Source: Agarophyton chilense
Lineage: Eukaryota; Rhodophyta; Florideophyceae; Gracilariales; Gracilariaceae
Length of the DNA: 64,000 bases
Direction of reading: 5' to 3'
NCBI GenBank assembly: GCA_030374765.1
Contig: JARGXX010000071.1
Span: 2,232,001-2,296,000 of the forward strand
In this document: positions 8,303 to 35,638 of the stretch, piece after piece
Position numbering within the stretch: the stretch's first letter is position 1
Layout of the letters: each line of letters starts with the position of its first letter
The notes under the pieces: generated by a model
Told to the model about the DNA's origin: nothing
Seen by the model: the letters and a program-made list of their open reading frames with translations, nothing else
Databases searched by the model: none
Position numbers and translations under genes: made by a program

Positions 8303-9997
8303 ATGAACACCGCCATTCGGAGCTTCAGTACCGTTCTCCTGGTCGCGGCCGCTCTGTTCTCCGTCGCCCACGCTCGTGCCTTCTGGACGACGCCTCATGC
8401 CAGTGCCATCAGCGACTCGGCCCCCGACTCGGCCCCCGACTCGGCCCCCGACTCGCCCCCCTCTGCACCCTCCCTGCTCACCTCGCTCCGCTCCGCCGAC
8501 GCCTCTCTTTCCCGAATCAAGTTTTCCGTCTACGGCGGAGAGGCCGCGCTTTATGTGAACGGGGTGCAGATGGAGACGGGGTCTGGGCCTCAACGAAAGG
8601 CTGACGCCCCCCTCAAGAAGAACGACGTCGTTGCATTCAAGTGCACGAAGACCCGTAGTCACAACGTCGGCCTGATGGCCACCATCGCCTACAACGGCAA
8701 GCTGTACCGCACCGGCATCAATCGCTTCACCACCCGCGAAGGCTTTTCAAAGTGGAACAAGTGGGAACAACAAGGGTGGAATGCCGTCAGCGAATTCAAG
8801 GACAACAGATCCGGAAACAAACACGACTTTTGCCACTGGAAGAAGGCAGACAGGATCAAGATGTCGGCCGCCAAGTTTGACAAAAAGGCAGCCTTCATCT
8901 GGAGATTGACTGGAAAGACCAACAAGGAAATGGCCGACACTGTGTTTATCCGCTTTGTTATCGGTGGGGAGAAATGCTCCGGCAAGCCGAACGACAGGGA
9001 TGCCGATGGGGAAGGCAAGGGCAAGAAGGGCAAGAAGGGCTCCAAGGGTGATGATGATGATGATGATGACGACGACGACAGCAAGAAGGGCAAGAAGGGC
9101 AAGAAGGGTGACGATGATGGTGACGACGACGACGACGGCAAGAAGGGCAAGAAGGGCAAGAAGGGCAAGAAGGGTGATGATGATGATGACGACGACAACG
9201 ACAGAAAGAAGGGAAAGAAGGGCTCCAAAGGTGATGATGATGATGACGACGACGACAGCAAGAAAGGCAAGAAGGGCTCCAAGGGTGACGGTGATGGTGA
9301 CGACGACGACGACAAGAAGGGCAAGAAGGGTGATGATGACGACGACGACGACGACGACAGCAAGAAGGGCAAGAAGGGCTTCAAGGGTGATGATGATGAT
9401 GACGACGACGACAGAAAAAAGGGCAAGAAGGGCTCCAAGGGTGGTGATGATGATGACGACGACGACAGAAAAAAGGGCAAGAAGGGCTCCAAGGGTGGTG
9501 ATGATGATGACGACGACGACAGAAAAAAGGGCAAGAAGGGCTCCAAGAATGACGATGATGATGACGACGACGACAGAAAAAAGGGCAAGAAGGGCTCCAA
9601 GGATGACGAAGATAACAAAGACGACGACGACGACGATAAGAAGGAATCTTCTGGCAGAGTCCCGCGCCCGAAAAACGACGACTACGACAGCACCACCACC
9701 AAGTATGGCTCAAATGACGGCTTGGCCGGACAAAACGATGATACCAAGCCGGACGGTTTCTGTGCCTGCAGGCTCTCCGCTCGCAGGGGCGGCGAGTGCT
9801 ACGACATGGAGGACGCTACCTCTACTTCCGGAAGGTGCAAGCCGCGCGCATGCGAGCCCAAGTTCGAGTGCGTCGCCTCAGGCGAAACCATGTGTGTCAA
9901 ACGTAGCGGCGGCAGCAAGGTGGTCATGGTGTCACCGAACAGCTGCAAGGTCGAACCCGCCGACGATGTCGAGATGCTGCTCCCTTATGAGGGATAA
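8303..9997 (+). CDS. secreted protein with Asp/Lys block repeats and a cysteine-rich tail
   Basis: 564 aa. An N-terminal hydrophobic signal peptide (TVLLVAAALFSVAHARA) is followed by a short PDSA repeat. Residues 70-230 form a compact domain containing KFSVYGGEAALYVNG, probably a beta-sandwich of the kind seen in extracellular binding modules. Residues 237-450 alternate blocks of 7-10 Asp with KKGKKGSKG-type blocks. The last 80 residues carry eight cysteines, consistent with four disulfides. There is no membrane anchor. Function unknown; the charge pattern fits binding of calcium and sulfated polysaccharide in an extracellular matrix, which is inference. The long open frames on the other strand and in another frame here are shadows of the repeat. 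Confidence 0.75.
   Translation: MNTAIRSFSTVLLVAAALFSVAHARAFWTTPHASAISDSAPDSAPDSAPDSPPSAPSLLTSLRSADASLSRIKFSVYGGEAALYVNGVQMETGSGPQRKADAPLKKNDVVAFKCTKTRSHNVGLMATIAYNGKLYRTGINRFTTREGFSKWNKWEQQGWNAVSEFKDNRSGNKHDFCHWKKADRIKMSAAKFDKKAAFIWRLTGKTNKEMADTVFIRFVIGGEKCSGKPNDRDADGEGKGKKGKKGSKGDDDDDDDDDDSKKGKKGKKGDDDGDDDDDGKKGKKGKKGKKGDDDDDDDNDRKKGKKGSKGDDDDDDDDSKKGKKGSKGDGDGDDDDDKKGKKGDDDDDDDDDSKKGKKGFKGDDDDDDDDRKKGKKGSKGGDDDDDDDRKKGKKGSKGGDDDDDDDRKKGKKGSKNDDDDDDDDRKKGKKGSKDDEDNKDDDDDDKKESSGRVPRPKNDDYDSTTTKYGSNDGLAGQNDDTKPDGFCACRLSARRGGECYDMEDATSTSGRCKPRACEPKFECVASGETMCVKRSGGSKVVMVSPNSCKVEPADDVEMLLPYEG
9012..9645 (+). repeat. in-frame tandem repeat encoding Asp and Lys blocks
   Basis: About eleven units of acidic (GAT/GAC) and basic (AAG/AAA-GGC) codon blocks. 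The last four units are very regular at 54 bp (18 codons), with identical starts at 9411, 9465, 9519 and 9573; earlier units vary in length. The recent regular copies point to ongoing slippage or unequal exchange. Confidence 0.9.
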
Positions 9998-15482: not shown

Positions 15483-15505
15483 CGTCAGTGTTCTCGGAAT
15501 GCTAG
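15483..15505 (+). repeat. left terminal inverted repeat
   Basis: The repeat reads cgtcagtgttctcggaatgc followed by tag. It differs from the reverse complement of the right end at only two of 23 positions (5 and 11). AGTG matches continue a few bases further in. CAGTG at position 4 recalls the CAGTG/CACTG starts of several DDE transposon groups. Confidence 0.75.
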
Positions 15506-15997
15506 TTCAGTGGTCAAAAAAGGACGAATTGAAATGACCGAAAACCCCGTGAATTTATCCAAATTTGGAGGTGTTAATTTCCGAAAATATTATCATTCGT
15601 TCATTAGTGCTAGTTTGTATGGGAAGGAAAACTAGCACATATCTGCAGTTTTTCTAGTTTTGATGGAGGTAAAACTAGCGTGAATCTTTCTGTCGCCGCA
15701 GTTTAAAGGTAAAAGTAGAGAAGTGGTGCAGGAGCAGATTCAATCTTTGTGCGCTCTAGATTGACAGATTAGTACAAACAACCGGTCCCAAAATGGACCT
15801 CAAAATAGAAATTGAGCATTTAGTACCATCCATATCAATCGCAATAGAATCGCAGCCCGACCTGGCAGACCTCACGTGTCTTGCATTCTATATTATTCTC
15901 CACCGCCCTCCCCTGTCACGTGCCCTGTGTGCGCCATACTCTCTCTCCGTCTACGCCCCCTACCAACTTCTTTCCCACCACCTCTCCTCCACCCACC

Positions 15998-18900
15998 ATG
16001 CCTTCCTGCTGCTTCAACGGTTGCTCCTTCTTCGCCCGAGAAATCCCCGCCCTCCAGCGGCACCAGAGAAGGTGCCCTCATCGCCTCTCCGCCAACAAGT
16101 GCTTCCTCTCCCCTGGCGGAAATGAACCCAACTTCCCCCCCCGCACAAAACGCCACAAGTCCACCTCACAACTCCCCCCTCATCCTCCTCCCTCACATCG
16201 CCCTTCCGACAACGTCCCTCTCGCACACCATGACTCCTATCTCCAAGACCAGCTCTCTCTCTCCCTCCACACCCAGGACGCCATCCACGTCGCCACTGCC
16301 CCTCTCGGTTCCCCCTCCTCTCTCGCTCTCTCCCCCCTCCCTCGTTCCACTCCCCCCCTCGACAACCCCCACCTGAAGAAAATGGTCCTCTACATCTCCT
16401 CCATCGCCTCCAAGCTTGGACAACGAAAGGCTGACGAACTCATCACTCTCCTTAATGATCCCCACTTCTCCGAATCAACATTCCGGAACTCAGTCTCCTC
16501 CGCAAAGCAATGCCTCGAGCTCCAGGCAGACCCCTTCTACCAGAGAATCAGGTCCATTGGTTTCGCCCCCTCCACCATCTTCGATCCCCACAAACGCTTC
16601 TCCGCAACCCTCTTCCAGAAAGACGCAATCCATGTCCTCAAACAACAGCTCGCCCTCGCACACTTCAAGAACACCTTTTCCCACCCCATCTCCCAAACAT
16701 CCGCCTCCGGCTCCCCTGCCTTCGCACACCCCATGGCAGCCACCCTCGGCTCAAAAGTCGTTCCCGCACTCAAGACCGCCATCATGCAGTCCACAAAAGA
16801 TAACATCGTCTGGCATCTCCCTCACTCCACCGGTATCGACTCCTTCATCGGCCTCGTCCAAATCTACTCCGACAAGTCCTCTACCTCTCTCAAATCTTCT
16901 TCCATCACCTCCTACCCCCTCCACATCACCCTTCTCAACTTCTCCGACTCCTTTCGCCGCAAATGCATCTCCGACAATCTCACACTCCTCGGCTATCTTC
17001 CCACCTCCTTCACCCCAATCACTCCTTCTCCAGATGCAGATATCATCACTCATTCCTCCTCCATCCCCCGCCAAACAAAAATGGAACTCATACAGCAGAC
17101 CATCTCCTCCTTCCTTCAACCTCTCTTCTCTTCCGCCCTCCCCGGTTTCCCCTTCCGCGACGCAGACGGCGTTCTTCGTCAATGCCACCCCATCATCGCC
17201 AGCTACTGCGCAGACATTCCCGAGGCAAAGGATATTCTCGCCATCTCCCACGGCACCCGCCCCCAGAACCCCTGCCACAGATGCTCTGTCCCTCGCTCAC
17301 AACTCCACCAACACTCTCACGCCCATCCCCCTCGATCTCTTCCCCTCACCTTTGCAGCCCGCAACAAACACTTCTCCCTCCTCAAGGACTCCGAAGCAGC
17401 TCTCCTCGCCCGCAAGCCAAGAGTCTCGCGCAACTTCAAGGAACAAGCTCTCCAAGCACTCCACTCCCTCTCCCTCGCAAAATACCCCTCCCTCTTCGAG
17501 TCTTACCCCCTTTTCAACATCACCCCCCTCCTCACCCCATACAACATCTTCCCCTTCGAATCCCTCCACAACTTCCACCTCGGCGTTTCCAAACTCATCA
17601 AGCTCGCCGCCATCGAACGTCTCAGATCAGAACACCTCTTCACCACCATCAGCTCCACAAACTCCCGCCGTTCCTTCCACTCCGTCCGCACCTCCATCAT
17701 CAAGCACTCCAACTTCATCCTCACCGCCATCGAAAATCATTCCCCAGCTACCGGCCTCCACATCGACTTCTCTACTTCCGAAAGCGGGCAGTCCCTCAAC
17801 GGCTTCTTCACAACTGACAGCGTCCGCGGCATGCTAGAAGCAAAAGACTACCGCGCCCTCGACATGGTCTTCCCCTTCATCGGCGCCTTCTTCGACCGCT
17901 GCTGTGACGAAGCCAATTCCGCTCCCATCACAACCGTCTTCTCCAAGTACACAGACCTCCTCCTCACCTCCATGTGCTACAACTCCGTCCCCGAATGGAC
18001 CACTTCTCGTCTTGCCTAACTCGCCTCCCAAATCCATTCCTTCAAGCACAGAGCTGTCGATGTTCTCGGTCCATACCATACCTCCAACCTTGGCACCCTC
18101 AAATTCCACCTCCTCGATCACATCTTAGACGACATTAGACGCTTTGGGGGTCTCCACTTCAACGATGCAGGCATCTTCGAACAAGCCCATACCCTCTTCA
18201 AAGCACATTACTCCCGAACCTCCAAGCGCAGAACCACCGCGCACAACGAAACCATCCGTGCCATCGAACGCTCCGATGCCGTCAACAATTGGATTTCTCT
18301 CTCCGCTGATCCTTCCGTCACCTCATCCTCCCATGCCCCTCCTCCTCCCTTCCAAGCCCGCAAACCAGGTTTCGTCCGTGATGGCAAGCACACCTCCTTT
18401 TCCGATCTCATCACCGCTCACAAATTCCTTCGAGCAAACCCCCACTCAACAATCTCTTCCCTTCAGGACCTCTTCTCCCCAGACACTATCGCCATCATCT
18501 CACAGATTGGAACCCTCGCACTCCCCTCCTTCGTCACACTCACACTCGAAACACTAGCTCTCAACCAGGACTCCCCCACTCTCCGCCAAACCCGTCTCAC
18601 ATTCGTCAATTCCGCATACGTCGTCGGCGGCTTCACCCCAACCCTAGACGACTACATTGCCGATCGAAACGAGCTCGCCGTCAAAGATCCCCCTCTCCCA
18701 CTCATTCAACGTATCTTCGCTGCTCCCTCCTTCGGTCCCTCTAAAACCCCAAAGTTCTCCCACATCCTCGTTGCCGGTTCCAGCTTCTCCAACCCCACTC
18801 CCACCGCCTGGGTCTGCAAGCTCAACTCTCTTCTTCGCTTTACCACCCCTTCTTCCCCTTCCACTCATAACGAGTTCGCCTTCGTTCAGTTCCTCGAACT

Positions 18901-19093
18901 CGTTCCACCCCAGGATCAAGTCGATATCTCTCTCAATTGCATCTGCCTCCGATGGGCAACAGACGACGAACAAAACCACACCGCCCACCCCCTTCCTATC
19001 TCAAACACTTCCAACTCCGACAACGTCTCCCCCTGGTTCGGCCTCGTACCATCCTCTTCCATTCTCGGCCCCGTTCATGTACTTCGCCAATAA
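15998..19093 (+). pseudogene. Plavaka/KDZ-like DDE transposase, split by one TAA
   Basis: The likely ATG is at 15998 (CACCATGC); the upstream extension lacks an ATG. The frame has 1,031 sense codons, broken once by TAA at 18017-18019. An N-terminal Cys/His finger (CCFNGC...HQRRC) comes first. Then IYSD in a context like the Plavaka catalytic block (D at 16871, followed by SYPLHITLLNF), ADIPEAKD (second D at 17213) with PCHRC, and HNFHLGVSKLIK. A FRRFGG-like block with FEQAH (E at 18179) lies after the stop. The end (ICLRW...GLVPSSSILGPVHVL) matches the C-terminus of these transposases. Coding-strand composition is extremely pyrimidine-rich. Family call from motif order; assignment between Plavaka, KDZ and CACTA is less sure. 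Confidence 0.7.
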
Positions 19094-19348
19094 TACCCCG
19101 CACCCCCTTTCACCCCTCGATTGCACTGGCGCTTCCATCGATTTTACCTCAACAGATTCTACCGAGACCCAACTGCCAAGCCCTACTTCTCCAACACCAC
19201 CACTGGTGGCACAACACCACCACTGGGTGGCACCCATAATAATACCTCCCAAGGCACATGATCCAATAAAATAGTCACCGCTGCTTTTCTTCCATAGCCG
19301 ACCCCCATCTTGCTCCACCTCCTTACCCCCTTATCCCCCCGTACCTTA

Positions 19349-22007
19349 TCACTCTCCCACTCCTTGCCTACTCCCCAACGCTAAGCGCTTGAACCGTGGT
19401 TCTTCTGGTCCACATGACGCTATATAGCAATCTAACACCGCTCCAAGTCTTCTCGTGAGATTCTCCATGAAAAACTCCTCCCTTATCGCCAGATAGATTT
19501 TCTCTCTCGACGGTATCCATAGCCCAACCGTCGCGATTCTCTCCTTATTCCCACTCACATCTCTACGATTCCCTCCACAGAATCCATCATTCTCAAACTC
19601 CTCAGCATACTCATCCTTCACCATGTTCCAGGCAACCCTCAATATGTCCTCAACAGCCAGTGGCAGAAACCTCCCAAACAGCGTCGAGAACAAAAGTTGC
19701 CTTTGGCCTCCCCGCCCAACGTCTCTATCCATCGTGGTCACCACACATCCAATCCATGCATCAAGTCGCGCAAGATGCATCACCGTCCCATCCACATACT
19801 GCCTTTCTCCATTTCTGTGACTCTCTACCGCGTAGCCCATAAACTCCTCCAACACTTTCAACGACACCTGATTTCGAAAATACATATCTGCCTCACCAAA
19901 GTCCTCCAAGTTCTCAGACACTTTCGATCCAGAATAAGTAATATCTTCAATCGCACTCGTTCTCCACGCACACAGCTTACTTCTCCCATCCTCCCCCGAC
20001 CACATCAACTTCTCCTGCGCCTCCTCAATCTGCTTCTTCAACTCCGCCCAAAGCTCCGTCCCTTCAGTCACCTTAGCTCGTTTCGCGATCAAATCATATC
20101 CAAGCATGGAAAACAGCTTATCACGCGCTGCTCGCTTCCGCACCCCAACCACATCGCTCAATGCTTTCTTCATCCTCTGTCTCAAGCACCGATCCGCACT
20201 TACATTTTCCACGCACTCCTCTCTCCTCCCCGCTTCCCTTATCGACTCCCATTTCTCTCCCATTAACTCAGTCTCTACCACGTGCTTGAACAACAAATGG
20301 CTCCCGCCCTCTGTCGACGGCGTATATGGTCTCCTCTCATATGCAACCTCAATTGGACATCTCGGAACCATTTCCTTCTCTCCCACCACAAACATACTTT
20401 CCTCCCAACTCTCCCCAACCGCCTCACTTCTATTCTTCCAGCTTCGACCCACATTCTCGGTGTCGAAGCAAAGTTCCGATGCCTCCAGTTTTGCACAATG
20501 AAGAATCCTATCATACACACGACGTGCAAATCCATAAAAGCATTCCTGCACTCCAATGTCATACTTTCGTCGCCGCGTCACGCCTCCCTCCCCCCTCCCT
20601 TCCCCGGCGATTCTACTTTTCAACGCCTCCCTCAAACTCTCAATCAGCACATTCTGCTGCTTCATTTCCTCCCTCGCCCGATCCAGCTCCGTTTGGGTCA
20701 TTTTCAAACTCACCATCACACTGTAGCTGTCTTCCTTCATACGTCCCATTTGTCCCTTCAACACATTCATCTTCTCAATTAGCATCGATCGCGGCAACAA
20801 ACCTATGTCATCATCATTTGCTTCATCTTCCACTATACGGACGGCCTTCTCCACGACATTTAAATTCGCATTCTCTCCGTTATCATTATTCCTTGTGAAT
20901 ACAATGTTTCTCCTTACTCGCATACCTTCCGGCGTCCTTCGCCTTGCGTTCACCTCAAACCCTTCAACTCCCAAACCCACCCCTCTCCTCGGTGGCAAAC
21001 GCTCGACATCTTCTCCCTGATGAGAAAGAACTGCTGCTCTTCCATCGCCTTTCTCCCCTGAACCACGTGTTCTCCCTCCAGCAAACCCCCTTCTCCCCCC
21101 CTCACTGACATGCACTTCTCTGCTTTCCCTTTCGTCTATCGCTCTTCTTCCTGTAATTCGAACACTCCCCATTCTCTCCCTTGCACGCTCTCTCCTTTCT
21201 TCCACGTAATCCAAGTTCGCCCCCTCCCATCTTTCCGCCTGTTCCCCCGCGGTAACTCCAACACTCTCTCCTTCTGTTCTCTCTCGAACGACTCTTGCGC
21301 GCGCGATTAGACCACTACTGGGTCCACCTATTCTACCCTTTCCACCAACCACGGCTACTCTCTATTCTCCCTTTCTGTATCTCATCATCACCGTCCTCTT
21401 CCCTCATACCGGTAAACGATGCCCCTGCTTCTTCAACGCCTCTGAGGCGGGATCCACGTTCTCCGATCATTCTCTCTCCCTCCTTACGCCCCTTCGTCCT
21501 CTCATTCGGAATCTCTCCACCTCTTTCAGGTGCAGAGCATGGATTTACCGGCTCCACATCAGCTGAAGACGTGAGTACAGCACTTAGAGTCCGCTCGGAT
21601 GCATCCCCTCTCCTTGTCCTCCCTGGAGCTCTGCTTGCCCTCCCCCGCAATCCACTTCTAGGTACACGCGTGCGGTTGCTTCGCACGCCATCCCGTTTTC
21701 CATCGCCGCTCCGCACCATCTCTCCCGTAGGCGACGTGATTTGCTCCGTACGCGACGTGATTTGCTCCGCACTCTCCTCCGTCACCGTCTCCTTTGCGCG
21801 AATAGCCTTTCCTTTGCCCCCACTCGCCTCTCCTTCCCCACCATCTTGCCTTGATCTACCTCTCAGGCGCACGCCTCCCTTCTCTCCACTCGCGCCCTGG
21901 ACCCTACGCCCCTTGTCCCTTCCGCCCTCCGCATCCCCTCCATGCCGCCGTGATTTTGTACCGCGCCCGCTAGTGTTCTCGCTTCTCGATTTGCGCTTCG
22001 GAGCCAT
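19349..22007 (-). pseudogene. large Arg/Glu-rich coiled-coil protein of the transposon, probable frameshift
   Basis: From ATG at 22007 (AACCATGG) a basic, Arg/Gly/Glu-rich frame runs to a stop at 21333. A 667-codon frame of the same style begins in another phase at about 21361, has no ATG near its start and ends at 19349. Removing one G from a GGG run near 21335 would join them into about 900 residues. The first 300 residues are disordered and basic, starting MAPKRKSRS. A coiled coil follows (SVMVSLKMTQTELDRAREEM), then a globular domain of about 380 residues that I cannot place. It may be a second transposition protein, as many large CACTA/KDZ elements carry. Convergent with the transposase, 255 bp apart. 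Confidence 0.5.
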
Positions 22008-22331
22008 GGTTGAAGAGAGAGAGAGCGATCGTGGTATGGTCTTCCACGCGTTGCAATGCGATGGATGGGAGAGAAGCTTCGAAACATTCTGCTTCCAAAA
22101 ATATACCTCCACCCTTTTCGTGTTCTCAGAAAACCCCCAAACTTTTCAGATTTTTTAAATATGCGCTCGAACGCACCAGATATTGGGAAAGTATTCTCCT
22201 TCGGTGTACATGACTTTCCTTTAGCATATGTACTACGTCACGCTTTGACGTTACATGTAGCGACAAACATAGTAAAAGCCCACAATATCTGGTACACTAC
22301 AATGAAGTAAAGTAACAAAAGCGATGCACTT

Positions 22332-25300
22332 TTAATCGATTACTGTGACTGGCGTGTTATTCATACTCCAGATATACTCTGTCCCCTAATCCGCGAACAG
22401 CTCCTCTCCTATTTCTATATCTCGAATTGCTTGCACAGAAAGCAATCTATAGTCTCTCAACTCAAATGGGTCCGCCCCGTCCCCGGAGTTCTGATGACCC
22501 GAACATTTGCAGTTCGGCGTCTCATTAACCCGTCTTCAACCGCATCTTTGTCCCTATCCCCTTCCACATACTTGGGGTCGTTAATTGTTCCCACCAAGCA
22601 AAATGGAGCAGGGACAATCCACACCGGAATAAGAGACACCTCACTAATTCTTCCTGGTAGCTTGTGAAACACTTCCCCACGGACGCTTATCTCCATCGCG
22701 TACTGCCGAAAACGATCAGCAGTCGCTTTCAATAGCCCCCCTCCGTATGCCTTATGAACTTCCTTCCGCTTTGAAAGATTATGTTACAACAAAGTCCCGT
22801 AAAAGTAACAAACAGTCTCACCTTGTATCACCCGGCGTGTTGTGTACACACCAACTCCAGCATTCGGGTGCCTTATCGTCGACTTTGCAATCCGACAACC
22901 ACATACTGTCGCCTCCACTGCCAGAATAGCATTCCAATCCAACAGTGACATCTTTCCTTGAAATCTTCTTGGCCACTCATACAGCGCCTGCCGTCCCCCA
23001 ATCTCCGGTATATTCTTATCCTGCCACATGGAGGAGAGAAAATCCACGATGTGGGGTGGAAACATCTGATGCTCGGGAAATCCGGTAGGTGTTTTCCAGG
23101 ACTTCGAACGCTTCATGACGACGTCTGGAAACAAGCATGTCACTCGAGTCACAGCGTTCCGAACATCTTGCGTTATATGAATGTCCGTCTCGTTGTTCCG
23201 CATGCATGACGCAAATTTCACTGTAGCGGCGTGCTTCGCATGAACAAAGCACTGCGGATCTGGCTCACACCCTAGAAACTGACGGTGCTTTTCCAGTTCC
23301 ATGCATTCCATGGCCGTTGAAAATGTTCCGGCGAAGAGGTCCACCACTATGTCTCCCGGCTGAGAAAACCTGCTGATGAGCTCCTTCAGCAAAGCGCGTG
23401 ACTTCTGTTCCGCCCGCACTTTCTGATACGTAACTGTTCCTTTGGCATTCTTCCTTCTCCATAGAAGTGTTTCACCATTCGACATGGGAGGCACTTGGTC
23501 AATCACGCTATGGTAACCCGGATATCGCGATGGTACATAGCTGAAGTTCTCATAGTTCACCATGCCATGTTGTTCGGCGTAGGACAACCAGCTGCAAACT
23601 CCATGAATGGCGTACTCTGTTCCGGGAAACAGGGAGCACTAACTACGTCCGGGATTACGCATCGGATTGCCTTGAGAGCGAATGAAGTGCAGCTGGACCT
23701 TGTACACGACAAACGACCTGCTCTTCTGTCCATTCTCATCCTTTGCACCAATTCGACCCAACACTTCTTTCCATTCGTTCACCTGCTCAATCGCGCAGAA
23801 TATAACGAAATGCCCTCCCGGACGCAGAAGTTTAGAGATGAGCTTCGCCGTCTTCACCATGTCTTGCCGGTTAAGAACGTCGTACCAGCTGTTTTTCCTG
23901 TTCTTCTTCGCACGTATATTATACGGCGGGTCCGTGAGAACCAACTGCACTTTCCCTATCGGAGAGACCCCATTGCTGCGCAATGTCTCGTCAATCTCCA
24001 CCAGGTTCTCGAAAGTACAATTGTACATTCGGCAGTGCTTATCCATCTCCGACTCGCACTTTTGGAGAGACATTATATCATCCAGAGAGGTAAGGTCGTG
24101 AGGCGGCAGAATATCCACCGACTCAGATTCGACCGACCTTGGTCCAGCTGTGGAAGAATGCTGACCAACACCCATGTTCTCTTCCTCATTCCCGGTCCCA
24201 CCCTCCACTCCCTCTCCACCCTCCACCGCCGGAGCCTCCGAATCTTTCTCAGGGGGTACAACTTCTATCTCGTCTTCTTCCATAACCATAGTAGGTTCCG
24301 CCTTTGTCGCAGCCACCACTTCCACCTCCACACTCCCTCGCAGCTTTAATGGCGATATGTATTCCGAGATGGTAGAGATAAGAGAGTTCGAGAAGCAGTC
24401 GAATCTCTCCGCAAACACTCTAGGCAAAGTGTATGTAAACGGTTTTAGAACGTCCCATCTTTCCGGAGCTGATATAGAGTAAAGCTGCTCATTCACCACC
24501 ACTTTGTGCAGGTCAGCGAGAAAATCTTTGGCCAACATACGAAGTGGAGTGTCAACGTACTACGGCAGGTTCCACGCCCATGGGATGACATCCTCCTCCA
24601 ATAAAGTACGGTTTCTACCAGGAAGCAGTCGTTGGGCCATGTCCTTGTGAGAGAACCCATCCCTTCTGTTTCCGATTGCCTGGAACTGCATATCAGAATG
24701 TCGTAGATGGATAAAGGGCAAAACCATGAATTCCACGCCAGGGAATCCCAAATACTGGGCGAAGCTGTCCCACGCGTTATTGACGAGCTGCACACCAAAG
24801 CCCACACGCTGAGCTACTGGTTTGTCATAAATCGCCACCTTCGAAAATGGCGTATCGCAGGTTCTGTCCCGCTTTCTTCGCTTACGGGAGACTCTTCTCT
24901 TCTCCATAGAGACCGACTGAATACAAATGAGGAACAGCAACCTCTGGAACATTGTCGGGAAGTCGGTCGCGAATGGAGCCCGGCTTTTGCTCGCCTTCTT
25001 TCGGGTTGTATCCAGACCTTTGAAGAACTCTGTCAAAGTGACATTCTTCGGGATGCCCTTGAACTCCACCGCCTCGTACGCGTTCCAAAAGTCCCTCACG
25101 CGCCTATCTGGGTCCCCATCCGTTATATCCAGCAACCTCGCCGAGAAATAATTCTGACAGTTCGAGCCCCTCATTCCTACAACTCGGAGCTCATCTTCTG
25201 TGTAATTGGTGTGATCGGGACCTAGGAGAGTGTAAAAAACTTCGCGGTCTCCGGTAGGATGTGGCGATTGGCAATTGCGAAATCGATGAATGCAGTGTGC

Positions 25301-25461
25301 CCCACTTTTCGCGGCTCATCTTCCTCCCGCCTCGTTAATGCGTAACGATCACGCAAATCCAGACACACCCTGATAACTTCATCCCCCGTACCAAACAGTT
25401 TACCCATTTCGAAGGTGTCTGCCGCAGGCGATGAAGAAGTTCTCGTGGGTTCTGGAGCCAT
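22332..25461 (-). pseudogene. DNA adenine methyltransferase (beta-class order) fused to a SET domain, broken copy
   Basis: ATG at 25461. An unrecognised N-terminal region of about 400 codons is followed by methyltransferase motif IV, DPPY (23921-23932), then a long spacer. A motif X-like helix (RALLKELISRF) and motif I, DLFAGT (about 23327-23341), come next. The IV-X-I order is that of bacterial beta-class amino-methyltransferases, and DPPY favours N6-adenine. After it a SET domain starts (GVGVYTTRRVIQGETVCYFYG) and continues with GTINDP, ANVRV and RDIEIGEELFAD. Lesions: TAG 24560-24562, TAG 23639-23641, TAA 22784-22786, TAG 22386-22388, and one-base losses in a T run (25234-25239) and a G run (about 22481-22484). 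A DNA plus histone methylation role is inferred from domains. Confidence 0.7.
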
Positions 25462-25531
25462 TTATGTACATGTTCAAACAACCTCACGGGCGGTCGTTAC
25501 GAGAGCCTGAGTGAAAGAGAGCAGCGGAGGC

Positions 25532-25549
25532 GGGTGGGTGCGGGTGGGT
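25532..25549 (+). other. G-quadruplex motif
   Basis: GGGTGGGTGCGGGTGGG: four G3 tracts with loops of 1, 3 and 1 bases, made by a tandem CGGGTGGGTG unit. Confidence 0.6.
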
Positions 25550-25657
25550 ACGGAAAGATTGTGAGTACGGTTGAGGAGCGCGCACGGAAGAACGGTTGTT
25601 GCGGAACGACTTCGTAGCTATCCTGGTTGCATTCTGTCGGCCGTCAGAGGTGCGCTG

Positions 25658-25686
25658 GGACTTCATCGGGACCCCCGATGAAGTCC
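25658..25686. repeat. perfect 13-bp inverted repeat with 3-base loop
   Basis: The arms GGACTTCATCGGG (25658-25670) and its exact complement (25674-25686) flank the loop ACC. There is no U-run, and it sits 220 bp before an ATG, so it is not a terminator. Confidence 0.8.
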
Positions 25687-25906
25687 AAGCCAATAGGCGT
25701 GTTTGTGATGGAAAGAGACAAGGAGTTTCCTGAGTTTGAAACTAAGCGGACGTAGTTCACGCTGATTGCAACGAACTGCTCTCGGGAGTGTTCCGGATAG
25801 TCGCCACCAAAGGAGCTCGATCTAATACGTCTTAGTCTGTATACCATAAAAGGCTCAAAGCGCTCTGCGACCATTTGCAACCTCGACTGACTACGATCCG
25901 ATTCAA

Positions 25907-28900
25907 ATGATGACTCGAGGCAAAGCGAAAGCGAGGGGTACTCCGCAGGGTACTCCACGCGCCACTCCGCGAAAAGCTACATCGGGAAACAATCTGGCTG
26001 GTGGGGATAGGGTGGCGTTGTTCCTGGCTGATGGGACAGGGAAAAAGAAGGGTACTATGGTTGGCACTGCGGAGTTGAGAGGCGTTGGGGGCAGTGGAGC
26101 GGCCGGGAAGGCGCTTTGCAGAGCGATGCATGGCCATTCGTTGCGCGAGTCTGCGAAGCCGGGAAAGGACTTGGTGGCCATCTGGAGGACTGAAATTAAG
26201 GAGGGGATCAACTCCAAGTATCCGTACTCCTTCAAGGGAGCAGAGGAGCCGCCGGAGTTGCTGAAGGATATGGTGTCGGCAGGTATATACGCATGGGATA
26301 CCTCGATGATGACACGCGTCTCCTCTGTGCTGACTCCAGGGCCTGCTCGGCCGGAGACTCCCAAAAGCGCGACCCCCTCGAAGGAGTCTGCTACGCCTTT
26401 GAGGGGGAAGAGGGCACAGCCAACAACAGTGCCGCCGGCCATGAAGCAACCCGTCAAGCCGAACAAGAGGGTGACGATAGTGGATGATTCTGATGAAGAT
26501 GTTGTGGAGGTGGGGTCAGCGGTGAATGTACGCGGGGATTCGCACACCGGTCCCGAGTTGGAGTTGTTCGATGACGGCGATGCCGTTCCTTCGCAGGAAG
26601 TGGATAGGACTCTCGTGGAAAAGAAGATCTCTGCTTCAGACTATGACCAGTGCCGCTTGATTGTGGACATAGATTACATACAAATCCCCGAGAAGACTGT
26701 CAGAAGTGTGAATGCGGAACACAAGGCGGCGACGATCGCAAAGTGCAAAACGTTTGGCTGGCTTGCGTCGGCAGGGTCGATTGCTGTTGCCATCGTCGGG
26801 GGAATGGAATTAGATTTCAGTGAAATTGTTCACAATGGGAGGGTAGTGGTGCCTGTCATACTCATTGACGGTCATCACCGCGTCTTGGTTCTGCGAGATC
26901 TGAAGAATGATCCCTCTGAAGGGAGAAAGTGGTTGGAAATTGTGCGGTCTCTTGATGTCGTTCTTTGGAGACGAAAGGACCGGAAGCCTTTATCGCTGAA
27001 CGAAGTGCTTGGTCTTGGTAATGTACTCAATGAAATGAGTTAAAATGTGTTAAACATGAGTTTCGCCGAAAAGGTTCATTCGACAGTGTCCTTCATTTGC
27101 AACTTGATTGACGATAAGAGAACCAAGTTGGCTGACCTTACTCCGACACGGATAGCTGGGGCGCTGAAGACGAGCGAAGCTATACGAATCTACAGCTTGC
27201 GCCACTTGAATCGCTATGCGACTCTTGGGTTGAAATTCGTCAGGAGCGAAGGTCTCCTGGAGTTCTTTGAGAACGTATGCAAGGAGGGTCCAGTGCTAAC
27301 GCTTGCGCATGTGTCGAGTGACTTGTTGTGAGGACTCGAAGACGAAATATTCCGTTTCGCAATCCGTTGTTTGCAGCTACATGTGAGGGTGAGGATGGGT
27401 TCTACGGGGAATATGGGACGTTTCCAGGAGACGCGAAAGCAGTTCTTCCAATGCGCCATAGGAATGTTCCAACTATGCGAAAGGGCGGGAAAGGAGAAGG
27501 GTCTGACGGCGGGGAAGGTTCTAGACAGCACAATTGTGATGGGAAAGAACGAGGTGTCTTTAAGGGAGTACCTTTTCATGCAAACGGCGAAGATGGAGCT
27601 CAGTGGTCCGAAGCGGTTGTGGCCGGGGTTGGTGTCGAAGAGGATGAAAATCGCACAAAGGCGGATTGAAGGCGGTCTGAAAGTGAGTCTGGCGTCCCCA
27701 AGTGCGGAGAAGGATGTTGTGGAGGTGCCACCTTCTGTGAATGTTCCTTCGTCTAGTGCTGGGGAGTCTGTACCCCACCAGGAAACCGTGGTTCCCAGAC
27801 GCATCACACGAACTAGAAAAGGTACTGAGCGCGGGCTGGATGCTGCGGTTGAGAGGGTGATGGAACCTAGACAGAGAAAGGGGAAGAGAAAGGCTGTGGT
27901 CATTAATGATGATGAACGCGAGTATGAACAGCCTTTAAAGCGGAAGATAAAGAGGAGAAAGACGGTGGGCACATCTGCGGCTCAAATACTGGCTGACGTG
28001 GTGGATGTGTTCAAGAAGATGAGCAGGAAAGAGCTGAAGCGCTTCTTGAAGGAACATGTACTCAATGTTTTCTCATCGAGTGAGGATGAACTGGATGATG
28101 ACGGGGGGCAGGGTGCATTTGTAGGGGACGAATAGGAGGAAGGTGTGCAAATGCGTGGCTTCGAAGACAATAATCCGGAGGGTGTTCCGAAGGGGCTGAA
28201 GAGGGCGGGACCGTATGCGGGGGGGTCGGGTATGTCGTGGGTGTACTTGGTGAATGCACTTCCGAGCGAGTGGCCGGCGGGTGAAAATGGAGTGAAGCAT
28301 CAGCACCTCTGGATGCAGATGATTTACCTACGGAACAAGCACAGAGCGGAGTGCTTGAGGGTAGAAGACTTGAAAAGTGTGCACCATGCGGTTTATTGGC
28401 GTGCTGCTCATAACAGGCACAAGGAACTGGGTTCCACGAAAGAACCGGTTCTTGGGGTGATTCTACCGACGAAGAACCACCCTGTGAATGAAGAGCAGGC
28501 GATATGGATGGCAGCAATGGAGAGGGATGACTTGGCCCGCGAGTACTTCGCGACTAAGAGAAGTGAGCTGATGGAGAAAGGATTTTGTGTGCTGGAAGAG
28601 TTTGCCACGGACGAGGGGATAGCGGATGAGGCGAAGAAGAGGGGGGTAAACTTCGATGGGGATTTGACTGGGACTTTGCTAGAGTTCTTCCAGACGGATT
28701 TCTTGAACCAGCCGGACTTGACGATTGAAGGGAATAGAAAGAAATGGGACCCTATAATCAACGCTGGTGAGGAGAGAGACGCTGGAGATAGAATGAAGGG
28801 AGTTGGGCGGTACATTACGACGAAAGTGGGGATTGTGGATTCTGTGGAGGGGGACGAGAACAACGTATTAATGATGAGGAAAAGGGCATTGTTGGATGCG

Positions 28901-29593
28901 AGGTTTGGACAGATTGCGGCCGCTCTTCGGTTGTGCAACAACAGGTCGGGGAAGAAGAGGATGTATGCCCCCGAAACAGGGGGGCGAGTGCTGTGTACGG
29001 CGGAGGGCTGTCCAAGGCAGGTGTTACATACAGACTTTCGAGGACTGACCGATGCCGAGAAGAACGTCGGAGAGGTTCCAGGGTTCTTCATGATGGCGTC
29101 GGGAGCGAGTTCGTTTATGCTTTGGGTTTGTGAGAGGTCACATAACATGTACGTGCCCGACGACAGGAGCTTGAAGCGGCTGTCTCGGACGATGGTAGTG
29201 AGAAAGTTCAGGATTCTGCCGTACTCCATTTTTATTGGAAGAGGAGATGTGTTTCATGCTGGAGCTGGATACGAGGATGCATTGGTTAAGGAAGTTTGCA
29301 TGAGGTATCACATGTACTTGGTACCGGATGGGTACAAGCTACCGGACGCAGTGCATAGGCAACCAGCATTTCGGCCTAAGTTCGAAGAGGATGATTCCAA
29401 CAAGGGTCATGATGAAGACGTCCAGGTAGATGAGGATGAGGAGTTGGATGAAGATTATAAAATGGAAGTTGTTGAAAGTGGGGAAGAGGAGTATGAAGAA
29501 GAGGATGATGAACCTGGGATGGGTCTCAACTCGGCTAACACAGATGGAGACTATGAAGACGGCGGTATGATAATGGATGACGACGACGACTAG
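25907..29593 (+). pseudogene. ParB-like domain plus 2OG-Fe(II) dioxygenase, one frame with three stops
   Basis: Starts at ATG 25907. One reading frame runs for 1,229 codons and is broken only by TAA 27041-27043, TGA 27329-27331 and TAG 28133-28135. Residues 1-220 are basic and Thr/Pro-rich. A ParB/sulfiredoxin-like core follows, with ILIDGHHRV (26861 onward). The middle is helical, then a long basic and acidic linker. The last part has dioxygenase features: QVLHTDF (His 29027, Asp 29033), FIGRGDVFHAGAGYED (His 29255) and RYHMYLVP (Arg 29303), with an acidic tail. Such enzymes oxidise methyl groups on bases or proteins; TET/JBP relatives are known from KDZ elements. Alternatively these are four separate proteins, but the shared frame and sensible sequence across every stop argue for one. 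Confidence 0.6.
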
Positions 29594-29674
29594 ATAGTAT
29601 CTGTTACCCATTGAACAATAAAGAGTACAATTTGAGGTAATATGTGGAGTAGTCCCCTTTTCTTGTCATAGTGA

Positions 29675-30514
29675 TCAGTCGTCTTTCAGTAGAAACTCCT
29701 GAACAACTGGATTGAAACGCGTGAGAGTAGCACTTGCTTTCTCTTTCTCATAGTGAATGACAACTGTCGAAGATATCAAGATTACGACATCCACTGTGTT
29801 ACCAAGCAGTATAAAAACACCAGGTCCCTCAATGCGAGAGGTGGAGAAGGCGGTTGAAGAGAGTGCAGCGAAAGTGCATGCCGAAAGCCTCATACCGAGT
29901 AGTCGGAAAATTACATCCGGACTGGATATGAATAAAGCCTGTTGAAAAGAGTGGGAGAGGGCGCCAAGCACGAGGTTCATAAAAGAGGTTCTCCGTGGTT
30001 CCGGGGTCATTGTGAACTTTGTGTTAAGATAGGACTCTGGAAAGAAGGATATAGAAACAAGCTGGAGAAGATATGCCAAAGCGCCAACTGCGGCCCCTCC
30101 TGTGGAGAAGGCGATACAATTTGTCTTCACGTCTGATGAAAGCGTACCGCTGACTGGAATGAAGCGGTGAACGAGGAAAAGTATGGCGTTGAGGGGGATG
30201 AGTAGAGTAAGGAGTAGAGCCCCGAATTCCAGAAAGGCTCGTTTCTTCCAGGTATATCGCTGGTTTGGATTGAACGGCGTAGTTTGTAGAGACCCGTATA
30301 ACGCGTTTATACATTGTACGCCTCCTTCGATTATGATAATGTGTAGCAGGCCTTGGATAGAACAACTCAATAGCGTTATGAGAATGAACCGAAGGAGAGA
30401 GTTGAATCTGAATGGAAGCGTATATTGCAGAGCTGGGTCTATAACTCCGAAGAGTGTAGTTAGTGTGATTGTGGACGTTAAGGTCGATGTGAAGAGTGTT
30501 TGCTAGCTGAACAT
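29675..30514 (-). pseudogene. multi-pass membrane protein with a TAG at codon 4
   Basis: The only ATG heading this frame is at 30514, and its fourth codon is TAG (30503-30505). After that the frame is open to 29675, about 275 residues, with no later ATG before the first membrane segment. At least four hydrophobic segments are visible (FILITLLSCSIQGLLHIIII; FLEFGALLLTLLIPLNAILF; GGAAVGALAYLLQLVSISFF; VILISSTVVI). No family is recognised. The start lies directly behind the stop of the small upstream gene. Either a broken gene or one using a non-ATG start. Confidence 0.45.
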
Positions 30515-30515
30515 C

Positions 30516-30860
30516 TTAGTAAAGGCGTTCTGATTTGCTAGTCTTCCTTGTACGCTGCACATAGGTAACGATATGATACCGCTCTTTGAACAGTTGTTTC
30601 AGAGTATCTTGCTGCTGTAGGGAGTTGCGAGTGGGGAGCCTCCTGGTGGTCGTACAAATGTCACGAATCTCGTCCATGAGCTCGTCGGTGATATGATTCT
30701 GGAACCCTCTGACTTCGACCACATTCTGGGTGGTTGGAAGTTTGATTTGAAGGACTTCGTCGATCGTGATAACCGTTCGTTGTGGAAGAATATCCACAGC
30801 TGCTGAGCATTGGACAGAAGAACCAGGGGGTAGGGAAAGACGTGCTTCGTAGCGCTGCAT
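30516..30860 (-). CDS. small hypothetical protein of the transposon
   Basis: 114 codons from ATG 30860 to TAA. The frame is open up to 31142, but that upstream part has no ATG and is Ser/Asn/Tyr-rich low complexity, so the shorter form is preferred. It contains RTVITIDEVLQIKLP, EVRGFQNHITDELMDEIRDI and a basic C-terminus. No family recognised. One base separates its stop from the ATG of the membrane-protein frame. Confidence 0.35.
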   Translation of the reverse strand: MQRYEARLSLPPGSSVQCSAAVDILPQRTVITIDEVLQIKLPTTQNVVEVRGFQNHITDELMDEIRDICTTTRRLPTRNSLQQQDTLKQLFKERYHIVTYVQRTRKTSKSERLY

Positions 30861-31275
30861 GCTTGAGAAGGAGAGGAGAGTGTTGTGTAGAAAGGTATTT
30901 GTGAGGGACTGGATACAGTATGTTGAGCGCAATGAAGTAGGGTGGTCATCGGTGGATATATATATGTATTGATCAAAGTAGTTGTTAGGTTGTTGCCGTA
31001 TCTCTGTCGCGGAGTATGAATAATTGTTATGAATGAAAACCTTTGATAGGCTGTAGGAGCGGTTATTGGGTACAGACTTAATTGAAAAGTTGGAAGATTT
31101 ATGAAGAGTGGTTGTAGTGATGATTTGTGATGTACGAAGCAATTCTTAATATCGTTTCATATATTTTGACGTGGTGTCGTGCGGATAGCAGTATTTATCG
31201 AGGCAGCGAAGGAGATGGACATATGCTTTAGAAAGGAGGACTTGTTTTTATTGGAAGGGGTATATGAATGAAGTA

Positions 31276-32100
31276 CTAACCATTGAGGAGGACGTTCAAG
31301 AAGTTCGTATGGAAAGGGGTGGGGTCACGGTTTCCAATGGATTTTTGGGCGTTAGAAACGTTGTAGAAGTAGACGTTCCGGAACTCAAAGTCTGAGAACG
31401 AGGTGGGGAACTGTGTAAGTGTTTTTCCGTGGGCCAGAAGTTTTTGGAGTGTTTCTGTTGTATTGTATGCGATTCCTGTTTCGGATGTGACGATGGCGAG
31501 GAGCTCTTTCATTATGGTTGAAACGACTGTGCGGTGTTGTACTGCAACTTCGAGCATTGTGATAAAGCCATAAGAGGAGCCGACGAGATTAAAAGCTGAT
31601 ATCCATACGAGTTTTTCGTAGTAAGCTTTAGAGAAGGAGGGCTGATCGACGACATGATAAGTGAGGCCTGCGGTACTAAGGCGATTGGCGAGTACGGGAG
31701 CCCATTTGCCGGTGGCAGTTGTGAGACCATGGGGACTGAGAAGGGTGACACCGTCCTCGGGGGGTGCGTTAAGGGAGGGGACGGCGAGGAAGAGAACGGC
31801 TTTGGTGCAGTTTTGGAGCCCATAGGTTGAAAGAAGTGGGAGAATGTTTCCGTTCTGAAGGAAGACCAGATCCTCTCTGCGGGAGGAAAGGCAGAATTGA
31901 ATGACGTCTTCGAGTGAATGATTTCTGCCGCAGAAGAAAATGGGGCCGTCGGGGATGTATTGCGCGGAGATGAATTCTTGAGTTGAGAGAAAAGCATCTT
32001 GTGCGGTGCCGTTGTTGCGAAGCAAAGTGCCGATTCGGCCTCTGCCGACAATAACGGCTGGGTCGGAGGTGCAAGGGATGGCAGTGAGAGAGTCGGTCAT
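31276..32100 (-). CDS. ketopantoate reductase-like (PanE/ApbA) oxidoreductase
   Basis: 274 aa, ATG to stop, uninterrupted. The N-terminus has a Rossmann glycine motif (AVIVGRGRIGTLL), later VFLQNGN, then a helical C-terminal half with a conserved-looking Lys/Asn block (YEKLVWISAFNLVGSSYG). This is the plan of 2-dehydropantoate 2-reductases, which use NADPH to reduce ketopantoate in pantothenate synthesis; the family also includes less specific reductases. It is one of few intact frames in the transposon, and its coding strand is C-rich like the rest of this half. Why a transposon carries it is unclear. It could be captured host DNA. Confidence 0.5.
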   Translation of the reverse strand: MTDSLTAIPCTSDPAVIVGRGRIGTLLRNNGTAQDAFLSTQEFISAQYIPDGPIFFCGRNHSLEDVIQFCLSSRREDLVFLQNGNILPLLSTYGLQNCTKAVLFLAVPSLNAPPEDGVTLLSPHGLTTATGKWAPVLANRLSTAGLTYHVVDQPSFSKAYYEKLVWISAFNLVGSSYGFITMLEVAVQHRTVVSTIMKELLAIVTSETGIAYNTTETLQKLLAHGKTLTQFPTSFSDFEFRNVYFYNVSNAQKSIGNRDPTPFHTNFLNVLLNG

Positions 32101-32711
32101 GTTGATTGCGAAAGGTGTTTGGAGTGCGGTGTGCTTGGAATTGAATAAGTGGTGGGGGTGGCGAGTGTGGAGATGTGATTAAATAGAGAAGGAGTATGGT
32201 TGTGGAGGAATGGGTGTTAGGGGTTTTTGGGAAGGAGGTTAGATTTATGTTATTGAATGGTGTTTATTGTGTTAAAAGTGTAGGAGTGTGTGTTGTTATG
32301 GAAGTCATAACGGGAAAGAGGGCTTATGAGTAATCGGCGGTTTGTGTTACGAATGAGTGTGATTTATTATAAATGAGAAGGCTATGAAATTGGGAGTAGT
32401 GAGGGAGCGCTGAACATGATAGAAGGTGTAGGAATATGGATGGGAGTGTGTGAGTGAGCAATGAGTGGGGTGAAGGGCATCCGGAGCGTAGATGCAGGGG
32501 TGTACGAGGGTACTGAAATTGGGCGAGCGCGCGCGAAAAGCGGGTCAAAAAAAGGAGATAAAAGGCCAGAGGTGGGCGAGAGGATTTTCGAGGGGGGGTG
32601 CTGTGTGGGAGGCTGCGGGTACTACTGGCCGCACTAAGATGACTGCGCTTGCGCTTGCGGTGGCTCTTGTCGATAGCTTTCGCGGGCGTTGGCGATGTCG
32701 AGCGGATCCCC

Positions 32712-33143
32712 ATGGGGCTGGAGATGTGGAAGCTGTGGAGGGCGAATGAGGAACTGAAGAGGCGTGTGAAGGTGTTGGAAGTGCACATGGAAGGGGTGGG
32801 GGAGATTTGGGGTGCGCGGAAGGTGTTGAAGGAGGTGGGAGAGGAGAGGAGGAGAGCGAAAGGGTCGCCGGTGACGCCAGGGAGACGCGGGGAGCCGGCT
32901 GGGATGAAGAAGGGGAGAGAGGAATGGAAAGGGGGAGGAGTTGGAGAGAGTCGGCTGAAGAAGAGGAGGGTTGGTAAGGATGTGGAGAAGAAGGGTGGGA
33001 ATGTGTGTGTGGTGGGGCAGCCGGGTGTGAGGAACTTGAGCAGTGGGGAGGTGGACGAGGTTGAGAATGCGGTGGTGGACTTCTTCAACCTCAAATACCC
33101 TCCCGGTGGAACGCTGGAGCCTAGTAAGCAAAAGGGCCAGTAA
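32712..33143 (+). CDS. small basic coiled-coil protein
   Basis: 143 codons from ATG 32712; the frame is open further upstream without an ATG. It begins MGLEMWKLWRANEELKRRVK, a short coiled coil, continues Gly/Lys/Arg-rich and ends with a VENAVVDFFNLKYPPGG motif. A 291-codon frame on the other strand overlaps it but is Ser/Pro/Thr-rich and looks like a shadow. Last gene before the right TIR. Function unknown. Confidence 0.35.
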   Translation: MGLEMWKLWRANEELKRRVKVLEVHMEGVGEIWGARKVLKEVGEERRRAKGSPVTPGRRGEPAGMKKGREEWKGGGVGESRLKKRRVGKDVEKKGGNVCVVGQPGVRNLSSGEVDEVENAVVDFFNLKYPPGGTLEPSKQKGQ

Positions 33144-33372
33144 TGAGGTAGAAGGTACTGACGACTGCCTTGGTATGGATCTCCACCTAGAGCAGTCAAA
33201 AGTGACCAGTAAACTGCAAATGCAGATTAAACTGCATTAAGTGGTCAAAACACTAAGATGCATGGAGTTCTTATTTCCAAAATTTTTTTTCAGGTGCCGA
33301 ACTAGCGCAATCGGCAAAATTCTTAGATTTTTTGGTTTTTTATTTACAAAACTAGCTATCTAGCACACTTAT

Positions 33373-33395
33373 CTAGCATTCCGAAAACACAGACG
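33373..33395 (-). repeat. right terminal inverted repeat
   Basis: Its reverse complement matches the left end at 21 of 23 positions. The flanks just outside (CGTCAGTG on the left; CAGACG then tagaat on the right) show no convincing direct duplication. Confidence 0.75.
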
Positions 33396-33607
33396 TAGAA
33401 TCCGTTCTCGGACTTTTGGGTTGGTCATCCACGTGTTGGAATATCTCTTGGAAGAGGAAGCACCGTCGTGAAGATTTGTTGTAGTGGTCCCCTTTGGAAA
33501 GGGTGGAATTGGTTTTTATTTTTGTTTTGTGTTACGTCATCCGTTCTCCGGGAATCTCATGATCGAATTTCATCGTTACCCCGAATCGTCGGTGTCGTGT
33601 CTGCAGC

Positions 33608-35638
33608 ATGTCGCCGCCTACCCGTGGTTCCAGGACTGGATCGAACCGTCAAGCGGATTCAGTGCCCCCGTCCCCGCCTAGGTCGAGGAGCTCAATTCCC
33701 GAAGGTCGGAACGATTGCGGTATCGATCCGGACACTCGGAGAGCACCCTCAGTGGTTTAATATCCTCGAGAGGTCGTGGCTGTGGGCCCAGCTCCAGTGG
33801 TGGAGACCCCCTCAGCAGCACCCCGAAGTCGGGCCGACCCTGAATTACAGCGCCTGGAGACTCGAATCGATATCGCCAACGCTGCTCACGTCGAGCTCCT
33901 TCAGGAGGTTACTACCCTCCGCCTCAAGGTGGAGGACGCCCAGGTGCGGGGAGTCGCCGATGACCTTCGTACCCTGAGGAGGGATGTGAAATCCCTTTTG
34001 GAAAGCTTTGGTACCCCTGGGGTCTTTATCCAGGAGTACCGGAGCTCCATGGAGGAACACCGCGTGCAAGCGGAACGCTTCCGAGCTCGGCTGGACACCC
34101 TCGAGGCCATTATCCGTATGGACGGAGACACAGAAGCCTCGAAGGATAAACACGACGTTTCGGAAGACGAAGAACACCGCTCCGCTAAACGGGACCGCCG
34201 CAAGTCCAAGAAGAGGGTTCACCTCCAAGAGGATTTATCGGATTCCGATCCCAATCGCTCGTCATCGAGTTCGTCCTCCGAATCTACGGATGGTGAAGAT
34301 GGACGCCAGTCATCCCGGGCGACTCGGTCGAAGGCTACTTACACCTCTAAAGGGGCAATCCGTACCCGGAAGAAGGGTAGGAAACACCTTGGATTAAGGG
34401 AGCTGAAGCCGACGAATCCTCTCTATCGGAAGCTGCTATCGTACCGCTATTACCGGTTGGATAACCCTTCGGGAGATCGAACATTCCGCGGAACGGGTAA
34501 GGTCAAGGACTACATCAAAAGGCTGAGCATCACCCTACAGAAGAGGGAGTTCACAGGAACAGACCCAATTCTGGTGCTCGATTTCCTTGCGAGGTTCATC
34601 CAGGAGGCTGACATCCTCGGTATGAGTGAAGCGCAAGCGTACTTTGCATTACCCTATTTCTTAAAGGGGATGGCTGAAGACCAGTTCAACTCCGTCCGTG
34701 GATCATTCCAAGCCTCGGAAGGGGGAGTCACGTGCTGGCCCGAAGCGGTGCAGTACCTCTTGAGGTCATACGCTACTGGAAATGCGATTCAGGAAGCAAT
34801 CCTTGCATTAAGGGATACGCGGCAGAAGCCGATGGAAACCGAAACGGTGTATTCAACTCGCTTGAATAAAGCGTTTCACCGATGCGGGAATGTATTCCCC
34901 GCCTACGAGAGATGCACCATGTTTGTGGATGGTTTGGACCCCTCGGTAAGGGCATTGGTTGCCCGACATCGGGAAGAGAAGCGCAAGCTGACCTACTTGG
35001 AACTGGTTCAGTACGCCCAGGTTAAGGGGGATACTCTCCGTGCACGGCAGAACCGAAAGAGTCGGCCGACACGTGCACTCCTCGCCGATGGAGGTAACTC
35101 GTCTTTGTCACTCGCAGGAGGCCCTGCCCCTGTGGGGGTCAATGATAACATTCACTTCATGGGAAGTAACCCCGAATCTATGGGTACGTCTGAGTTGCCG
35201 TCGACATCCGCTCCGACTACGGATGAAGACCCTGCGCTCTATACCCAAGGACGGAGGGTGCCAGCCGCATCGCTACCTTTTGCGAATACCGCTGCTCGGT
35301 TCTTTCGCCCCAGATGGAGGGATACAGCACCACGTCGCGTGGATTCACGTCCACAACCGAACCCGGCAGAGCTGATTTGCTATTTGTGTTACCTCCGTGG
35401 TCACAAAGCACCAGACTGCACATTTCCCCTGCGGGAGGGTTCACGAATTATCGCTCAGTACGAGGCTCTGACCCCTGAGGAGAAAGCTCGAGTCCCGAGT
35501 AGGTCCTATGAGGAACAAAGGATACTCCGAGCTCACCTTGCTGACAGGGATACAGAACTTGTACCGGCGAACGGGGAACAACCGGTCCCCTGCGAGGCAG
35601 CTGCACCGAATTCGGTGGGGTCCGCTTCGAAAAACTAA
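33608..35638 (+). pseudogene. gag: gag of element 1, early in-frame TAA
   Basis: ATG 33608, then TAA at 33758-33760 (codon 51), then open to TAA at 35636. Contains a coiled coil, an acidic/basic Ser-rich linker and a capsid-like retrotransposon gag domain (FTGTDPILVLDFLARFI). A CCHC knuckle is seen at 35378-35419 (CYLCYLRGHKAPDC). The pol frame is -1 relative to gag and already open across the gag end, where GAAAAAC directly precedes the stop. Confidence 0.75.

Follow-up and report, generated by a model that had tools for sequence, protein, structure and literature searches.

A red algal Plavaka transposon with a methyltransferase-SET gene and a ParB-dioxygenase-like gene on either side of a palindrome array

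Can a eukaryotic transposon carry the means to write, spread and limit the marks on its own DNA? This question is raised by positions 15483-33395 of a 64,000-nucleotide stretch of a red algal genome (the window), which had been predicted from the letters alone to hold a DNA transposon with a DNA methyltransferase-SET fusion and a ParB-like, dioxygenase-like protein encoded by divergent genes. These positions are the exact span of a transposon belonging to a Plavaka family of about 18-19 kb, and its identity and gene content can be regarded as secure.

Ends, copies and transposase

Both ends carry terminal inverted repeats (TIRs) of 23 bp each, identical to one another at 21 of 23 positions. 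The left TIR (15483..15505, + strand) reads CGTCAGTGTTCTCGGAATGCTAG from 15483, starting with CGTCAG, and other copies begin with the identical sequence; the right TIR (33373..33395, - strand) reads CGTCTGTGTTTTCGGAATGCTAG as the reverse complement from 33395 and starts with CGTCTG. Searching the genome (79.76 Mb in 135 contigs) for an 18-base TIR core with at most one mismatch revealed 411 sites (213+198), while the reversed control gave none (0+0). Pairing was drawn from the first 100 of the 411 sites and yielded 29 adjacent facing pairs, the window's own pair lying outside them. Twelve of the 29 enclose matches to the transposase, the methyltransferase (MTase)-SET and the ParB-dioxygenase genes together; of the remaining 17, two are without the dioxygenase only, two without the MTase only, 11 have the transposase alone and two hold none of the three. 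Many copies have both ends and the cargo genes in common. One of them, C117 (C117:1463501-1482600), aligns end to end over window positions 15483-33397 at 98.9% of aligned bases, in two large blocks of 98.9% and 98.8% identity; about 710 bp of its middle is missing from the window copy. Five short derivatives of 3.0-5.9 kb, found among seven TIR pairs shorter than 6.5 kb, retain both ends, part of the transposase and units of the array, and were counted as one event because they have their junctions in common. One further candidate, C68:1691236-1710962, has facing TIRs 19.7 kb apart and was rejected as a family copy, since it is not similar to C117 and the element's genes are all absent from it.

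Target-site duplications (TSDs), which the prediction had named as a check, were found at the other copies and not in the window. Nine of ten non-window copies examined are flanked by 2-bp TSDs (TA, TT, TA, AA, AT, TG, TT, TA and, for C117, TA), one has the mismatched flanks AT/GG, and the window copy, flanked by CG/TA, has no TSD. As its reading frames are, in addition, interrupted where other copies are open, the window copy is a decayed copy. No Rfam match was found in the element.

The transposase gene (15848..19258, + strand; right limit transferred by offset from C117) is interrupted in the window and matches the Plavaka family PF18759 with 80.5 bits, while the frame of C117 is open and intronless over 1137 aa from stop to stop and reaches 80.8 bits against a cut-off of 26.3, Plavaka being its sole Pfam match at E values up to 1. 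The original paper on the KDZ and Plavaka groups is reportedly that of Iyer and colleagues. Having been labeled “Plavaka/KDZ-like”, the element keeps the first half of the name and loses the second: no KDZ match was found, and the Plavaka transposase domain together with the 2-bp TSD rules out a KDZ element, as the TSDs of the KDZ groups Kyakuja and Zisupton measure 7 and 8 bp, respectively, according to the relevant part of PMC12730594. The same part describes Plavaka as without similarity to the KDZ groups and names two motifs, C(2)C and H(3-4)H, that lie among its catalytic residues. Plavaka transposons have TSDs of 2 or 3 bp, and PlavakaB has the termini CATCA..TGATG. Most copies of the red algal family show CGTCA at one end and CGTCT at the other (CGTCA..AGACG), one having CATCA, which is similar, though not identical, to PlavakaB. 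In the account of Kojima 2025 (PMC12730594), as far as it covers the fungal PlavakaB elements with TET/JBP genes, these share the Plavaka transposase, the 2-bp TSD and a dioxygenase-like gene aboard with our element, which is set apart by the fusion of MTase and SET, by its ParB fold, by the palindrome array and by having no Tet_JBP match.

Two divergent genes around a palindrome array

The center of the element is arranged as writer, palindrome array and ParB-dioxygenase, the two genes being divergent, with a PanE-like gene in addition. The writer gene (22330..25461, - strand, limits by offset from C117) is split into at least three frames in the window, but open and intronless in C117, where it encodes 1043 aa. 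Its MTase part matches PF01555 with 66.9 bits, and DPPY precedes the FxG motif in this N6_N4_Mtase domain, which places it in the beta class of DNA amino-methyltransferases; judging from structural ranking, N6-adenine would be a likelier target than N4-cytosine. The SET part is recognized marginally in C117 (PF00856, 23.4 bits versus a cut-off of 22.4) and PF00856 is carried by 21 of 38 relatives; the predicted fusion holds. Canonical SET lysine methyltransferases have an NHSCxPN motif and a catalytic Tyr. The element SET has IND and RxxNV in place of NHSCxPN, and 30 of 35 alignment rows show the Tyr of a DYG stretch.

Two known systems invite comparison. N4CMT of bdelloid rotifers, as described in the part of PMC8885841 devoted to it, bears a chromodomain, which reads, and serves host silencing, whereas the red algal protein bears a SET domain, which may write, and resides on a mobile element. 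HarbingerS and MuDR elements of Phytophthora are likewise DNA transposons with a SET gene, but the passage on them in PMC12730594 mentions neither a DNA methyltransferase fusion nor a ParB-dioxygenase, both of which are present in the red algal element. An IMG/VR scan with the MTase-SET alignment gave at least 62 loci among 600 candidates, with matches confined to the MTase part (residues 438-724).

Between the divergent genes, C117 carries seven palindromes of about 55-90 bp each (positions 10188-11020 of C117:1463501-1482600) with an inner core GACTTCATCGG...CCGATGAAGTC and an outer part TGTCGGCCGACA; allowing one mismatch at most, the core occurs at 255 genome sites. Alignment to C117 identified one remnant of the array in the window (25651..25693, no strand), the rest of the array having been lost with the missing 710 bp or so.

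The gene on the other side (25850..29590, + strand) is broken between 27040 and 28136 in the window and open in C117, where it encodes an intronless protein of 1247 aa. A structure search recognized a ParB N-domain fold in its N-terminal part, followed by a DNA-binding part. The C-terminal part is assigned to the 2OG-Fe(II) dioxygenases by motif alone, HxD...H...R being invariant in five of five sequences; a check of the predicted model for a double-stranded beta-helix met pLDDT values below 50 in this region. The VIA structure lists for both models were taken up by one domain, and the lack of SET or dioxygenase structures there is uninformative. We found no Tet_JBP match in the protein and none in the genome search, in which every control stayed silent; a divergent PE type of TET/JBP has been detected by structure only, as stated in the corresponding part of PMC12730594. 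At least three relatives of the ParB-dioxygenase came from a single-sequence search (best 7988 candidates scored), while a search with the five-row alignment (best 7996 candidates scored) returned no relative, the three known ones included. A viral origin was rejected after an IMG/VR scan with the ParB-dioxygenase alignment, which gave no relative among 75 pattern matches, and tblastn of the dioxygenase part against phages gave no match.

In bacteria, ParB, Noc and KorB are clamps that load on palindromic sites. The red algal protein resembles all three in its fold and in the palindromes adjoining its gene, and is unlike them in being fused to a dioxygenase-like domain and located in a eukaryotic transposon; its use of CTP is putative.

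A related module near contig ends

Searching the genome with the MTase resulted in 137 matched stretches, of which the best 60, with 92-100% identity, are the transposon family, window included; besides further fragments, a second family was represented by 32 matches at 46-48% identity. In this second family, 24 of 32 matches are no more than 50 kb away from a contig end (eight judged by contig start), two are at about 69 kb, and the remaining six have no assigned distance. Seven stretches from contig ends or their vicinity were read: telomere-type repeats were present in two, namely both ends of C95, and absent from the other five (C106, C103, C96, C116 and C98). On C106 (C106:340001-360000), a RecQ-type helicase is followed by an MTase-SET gene (1141 aa), seven 773-bp repeats and a ParB-dioxygenase gene (1316 aa), the + strand being G-rich toward the near contig end; the helicase is present with 99.8-100% identity in all three further stretches read (C95, C98 and C96). 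Subtelomeric units with telomere-linked RecQ helicases occur in fungi, and the red algal module resembles them in adjoining a RecQ-type helicase near contig ends, but differs in carrying MTase-SET and ParB-dioxygenase genes.

The PanE/2-dehydropantoate-reductase-like gene of the transposon (31279..32178, - strand; a weak match, below cut-off) also has relatives in this module. They were found on six contigs with a subtelomeric ParB-dioxygenase match, facing the ParB-dioxygenase gene on C92, C95, C31, C76 and C63 and lying beyond the MTase gene, on the other side, on C32. The original prediction had counted the occurrence of cargo elsewhere as single host genes against itself. The objection applies in part: the MTase-SET and ParB-dioxygenase genes do occur outside the transposon, though there they form a related divergent module instead of standing singly. 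A lone PanE-like relative lies apart from both families (C25:775041-775799, 39%, one stop). By the search positions, the pair is divergent at 12 of the 13 places with both matches within 20 kb, C31 being the exception.

Proteins P0004 and P0005 are 50% and 41% identical, respectively, to the transposon MTase-SET protein. In the tree, the transposon MTase groups with P0004 and the subtelomeric MTase with P0005, each with a support of 100/100; if both proteins come from other species, as they presumably do, the two lineages would predate the host species.

A proposed self-marking switch and its alternatives

Our preferred, still tentative, reading of this arrangement is a transposon-borne self-marking switch with a ParB-type clamp spreading from the palindromes; its parts and copies are observed, while its biochemistry is inferred. 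The MTase-SET protein would methylate amino groups in the element's DNA and perhaps also lysines of its nucleosomes. In the second protein, the ParB-fold part would load on the array, as ParB, Noc or KorB do on palindromic sites, spread outward and carry the dioxygenase part along the element, whereby marks might be removed or limited. Divergent genes around one array would then form a self-contained on/off or self-recognition switch, by which silencing would come under the element's own control, the host being seemingly without 5-methylcytosine (5mC) machinery. If this is true, a single mobile element would bear a writer of DNA methylation that may also write on histones, together with a candidate eraser, the two genes flanking a cis array, in a eukaryote apparently devoid of that machinery; the ParB fold suggests a testable route by which chromatin changes might spread from a nucleation site, and the module common to transposon and chromosome-end units ties transposon biology to subtelomere structure. 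Among the titles and abstracts listed in searches of CC-licensed PMC papers, subscription papers and Repbase reports being outside this scope, none describes this gene combination.

A strand bias bears on a different use of the same parts. GC skew of the + strand at four-fold sites is negative in all four left frames (-0.96, -0.78, -0.49 and -0.39) and positive in all four right frames (+0.50, +0.24, +0.39 and +0.83), its sign being independent of the coding strand and switching beside the array; in the transposase, G makes up 1.3% of four-fold sites. Cumulative skew in the C117 stretch has its minimum at position 9953 (-1994, compared with -674 as the lowest of 200 shuffles), and the window has it at 25410, adjoining the array. 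The skew was apparently not generated while copies were resident in the chromosome, because singleton changes in them are near strand-symmetric: C>T per C versus G>A per G was 0.041/0.039 in the far left, 0.024/0.015 in the MTase region and 0.043/0.052 in the right part. This count excluded six rows repeating C117 or the window, as well as codon variants that differ by two or more changes, and it took in the MTase-SET and ParB-dioxygenase genes in part. Singletons of the type G>C (6 in the left part, 13 in the right) and C>G (11 and 3, respectively) were too few to settle anything. Cytosine deamination as the sole cause was rejected, with AT skew at four-fold sites staying small, as was heavy CpG mutation, with C>T and G>A singletons just 1.2- to 1.7-fold enriched in CpG. 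Outward replication from the array or damage to exposed end strands may have caused the skew.

A wider version of our reading, which we consider doubtful, would take clamp-dioxygenase, array and double DNA/histone writer as a eukaryotic self-marking and maintenance system in two vehicles, transposon and chromosome ends, with the V-shaped bias recording outward replication or exposure from the array. Maintenance by itself is unlikely: the ParB-type protein and the array would serve as an origin-like or partition-like center of a transient free form, those of the subtelomeric relative would act as a device of chromosome ends, and methylation would time replication. The switch of skew beside the array regardless of strand, its apparent origin outside chromosomal residence and the G-rich strand of the C106 relative next to a RecQ-type helicase are consistent with such a role. 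However, no replication or ParA gene of the element was recognized by Pfam, damage to exposed end strands or an old bias could yield an equal skew, the gradient in the right half is uneven and the A/T asymmetry is small.

Anti-silencing alone, in which the dioxygenase would strip a mark placed by the host and the MTase-SET gene would be secondary, has its precedent in the TET/JBP genes of Plavaka and other fungal transposons, for which this role has been proposed (PMC12730594, in the part on these genes), but it is distinctly unlikely here. Instead of a fungus, the host is a red alga, to which nine light-harvesting protein matches and 13 phycobilisome linker domain matches, six of the latter outside contig C39, point by known family distribution. 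No C5 DNA methyltransferase was matched in a six-frame genome search in which controls matched in 10 of 14 cases, so the host likely lacks this enzyme, although about 8% methylation is reported for one red seaweed in the relevant part of PMC8566409, and a 5mC eraser role of the dioxygenase part is unlikely. CpG observed/expected is 0.92-1.00 in the three stretches measured. With neither a C5 methyltransferase match nor, under silent controls, a Tet_JBP match, the fungal TET/5mC analogy drawn in the original prediction does not carry over directly. Writer and dioxygenase, moreover, stay paired in two vehicles, which also speaks against anti-silencing alone.

Similarly improbable is a passenger status, in which Plavaka would have acquired a pre-existing subtelomeric module contributing little to transposition: the short derivatives multiplied without MTase-SET or ParB-dioxygenase genes, but may have been mobilized in trans, both MTase lineages look old in the tree, and ParB-dioxygenase variants show constraint.

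Three further parts of the element contain frames of less clear nature. A basic, partly coiled-coil protein without family match, possibly an accessory protein, is encoded by two overlapping frames at 19349..22145 (- strand); two adjacent frames at 29678..31145 (- strand), one of them hydrophobic by eye, have no convincing family match; and, toward the right end, a short charged frame (32643..33143, + strand) is of unsure coding status. Beyond the element, starting near its right end, a frame at window positions 33761-35638 resembles a retroelement Gag by its sequence appearance.

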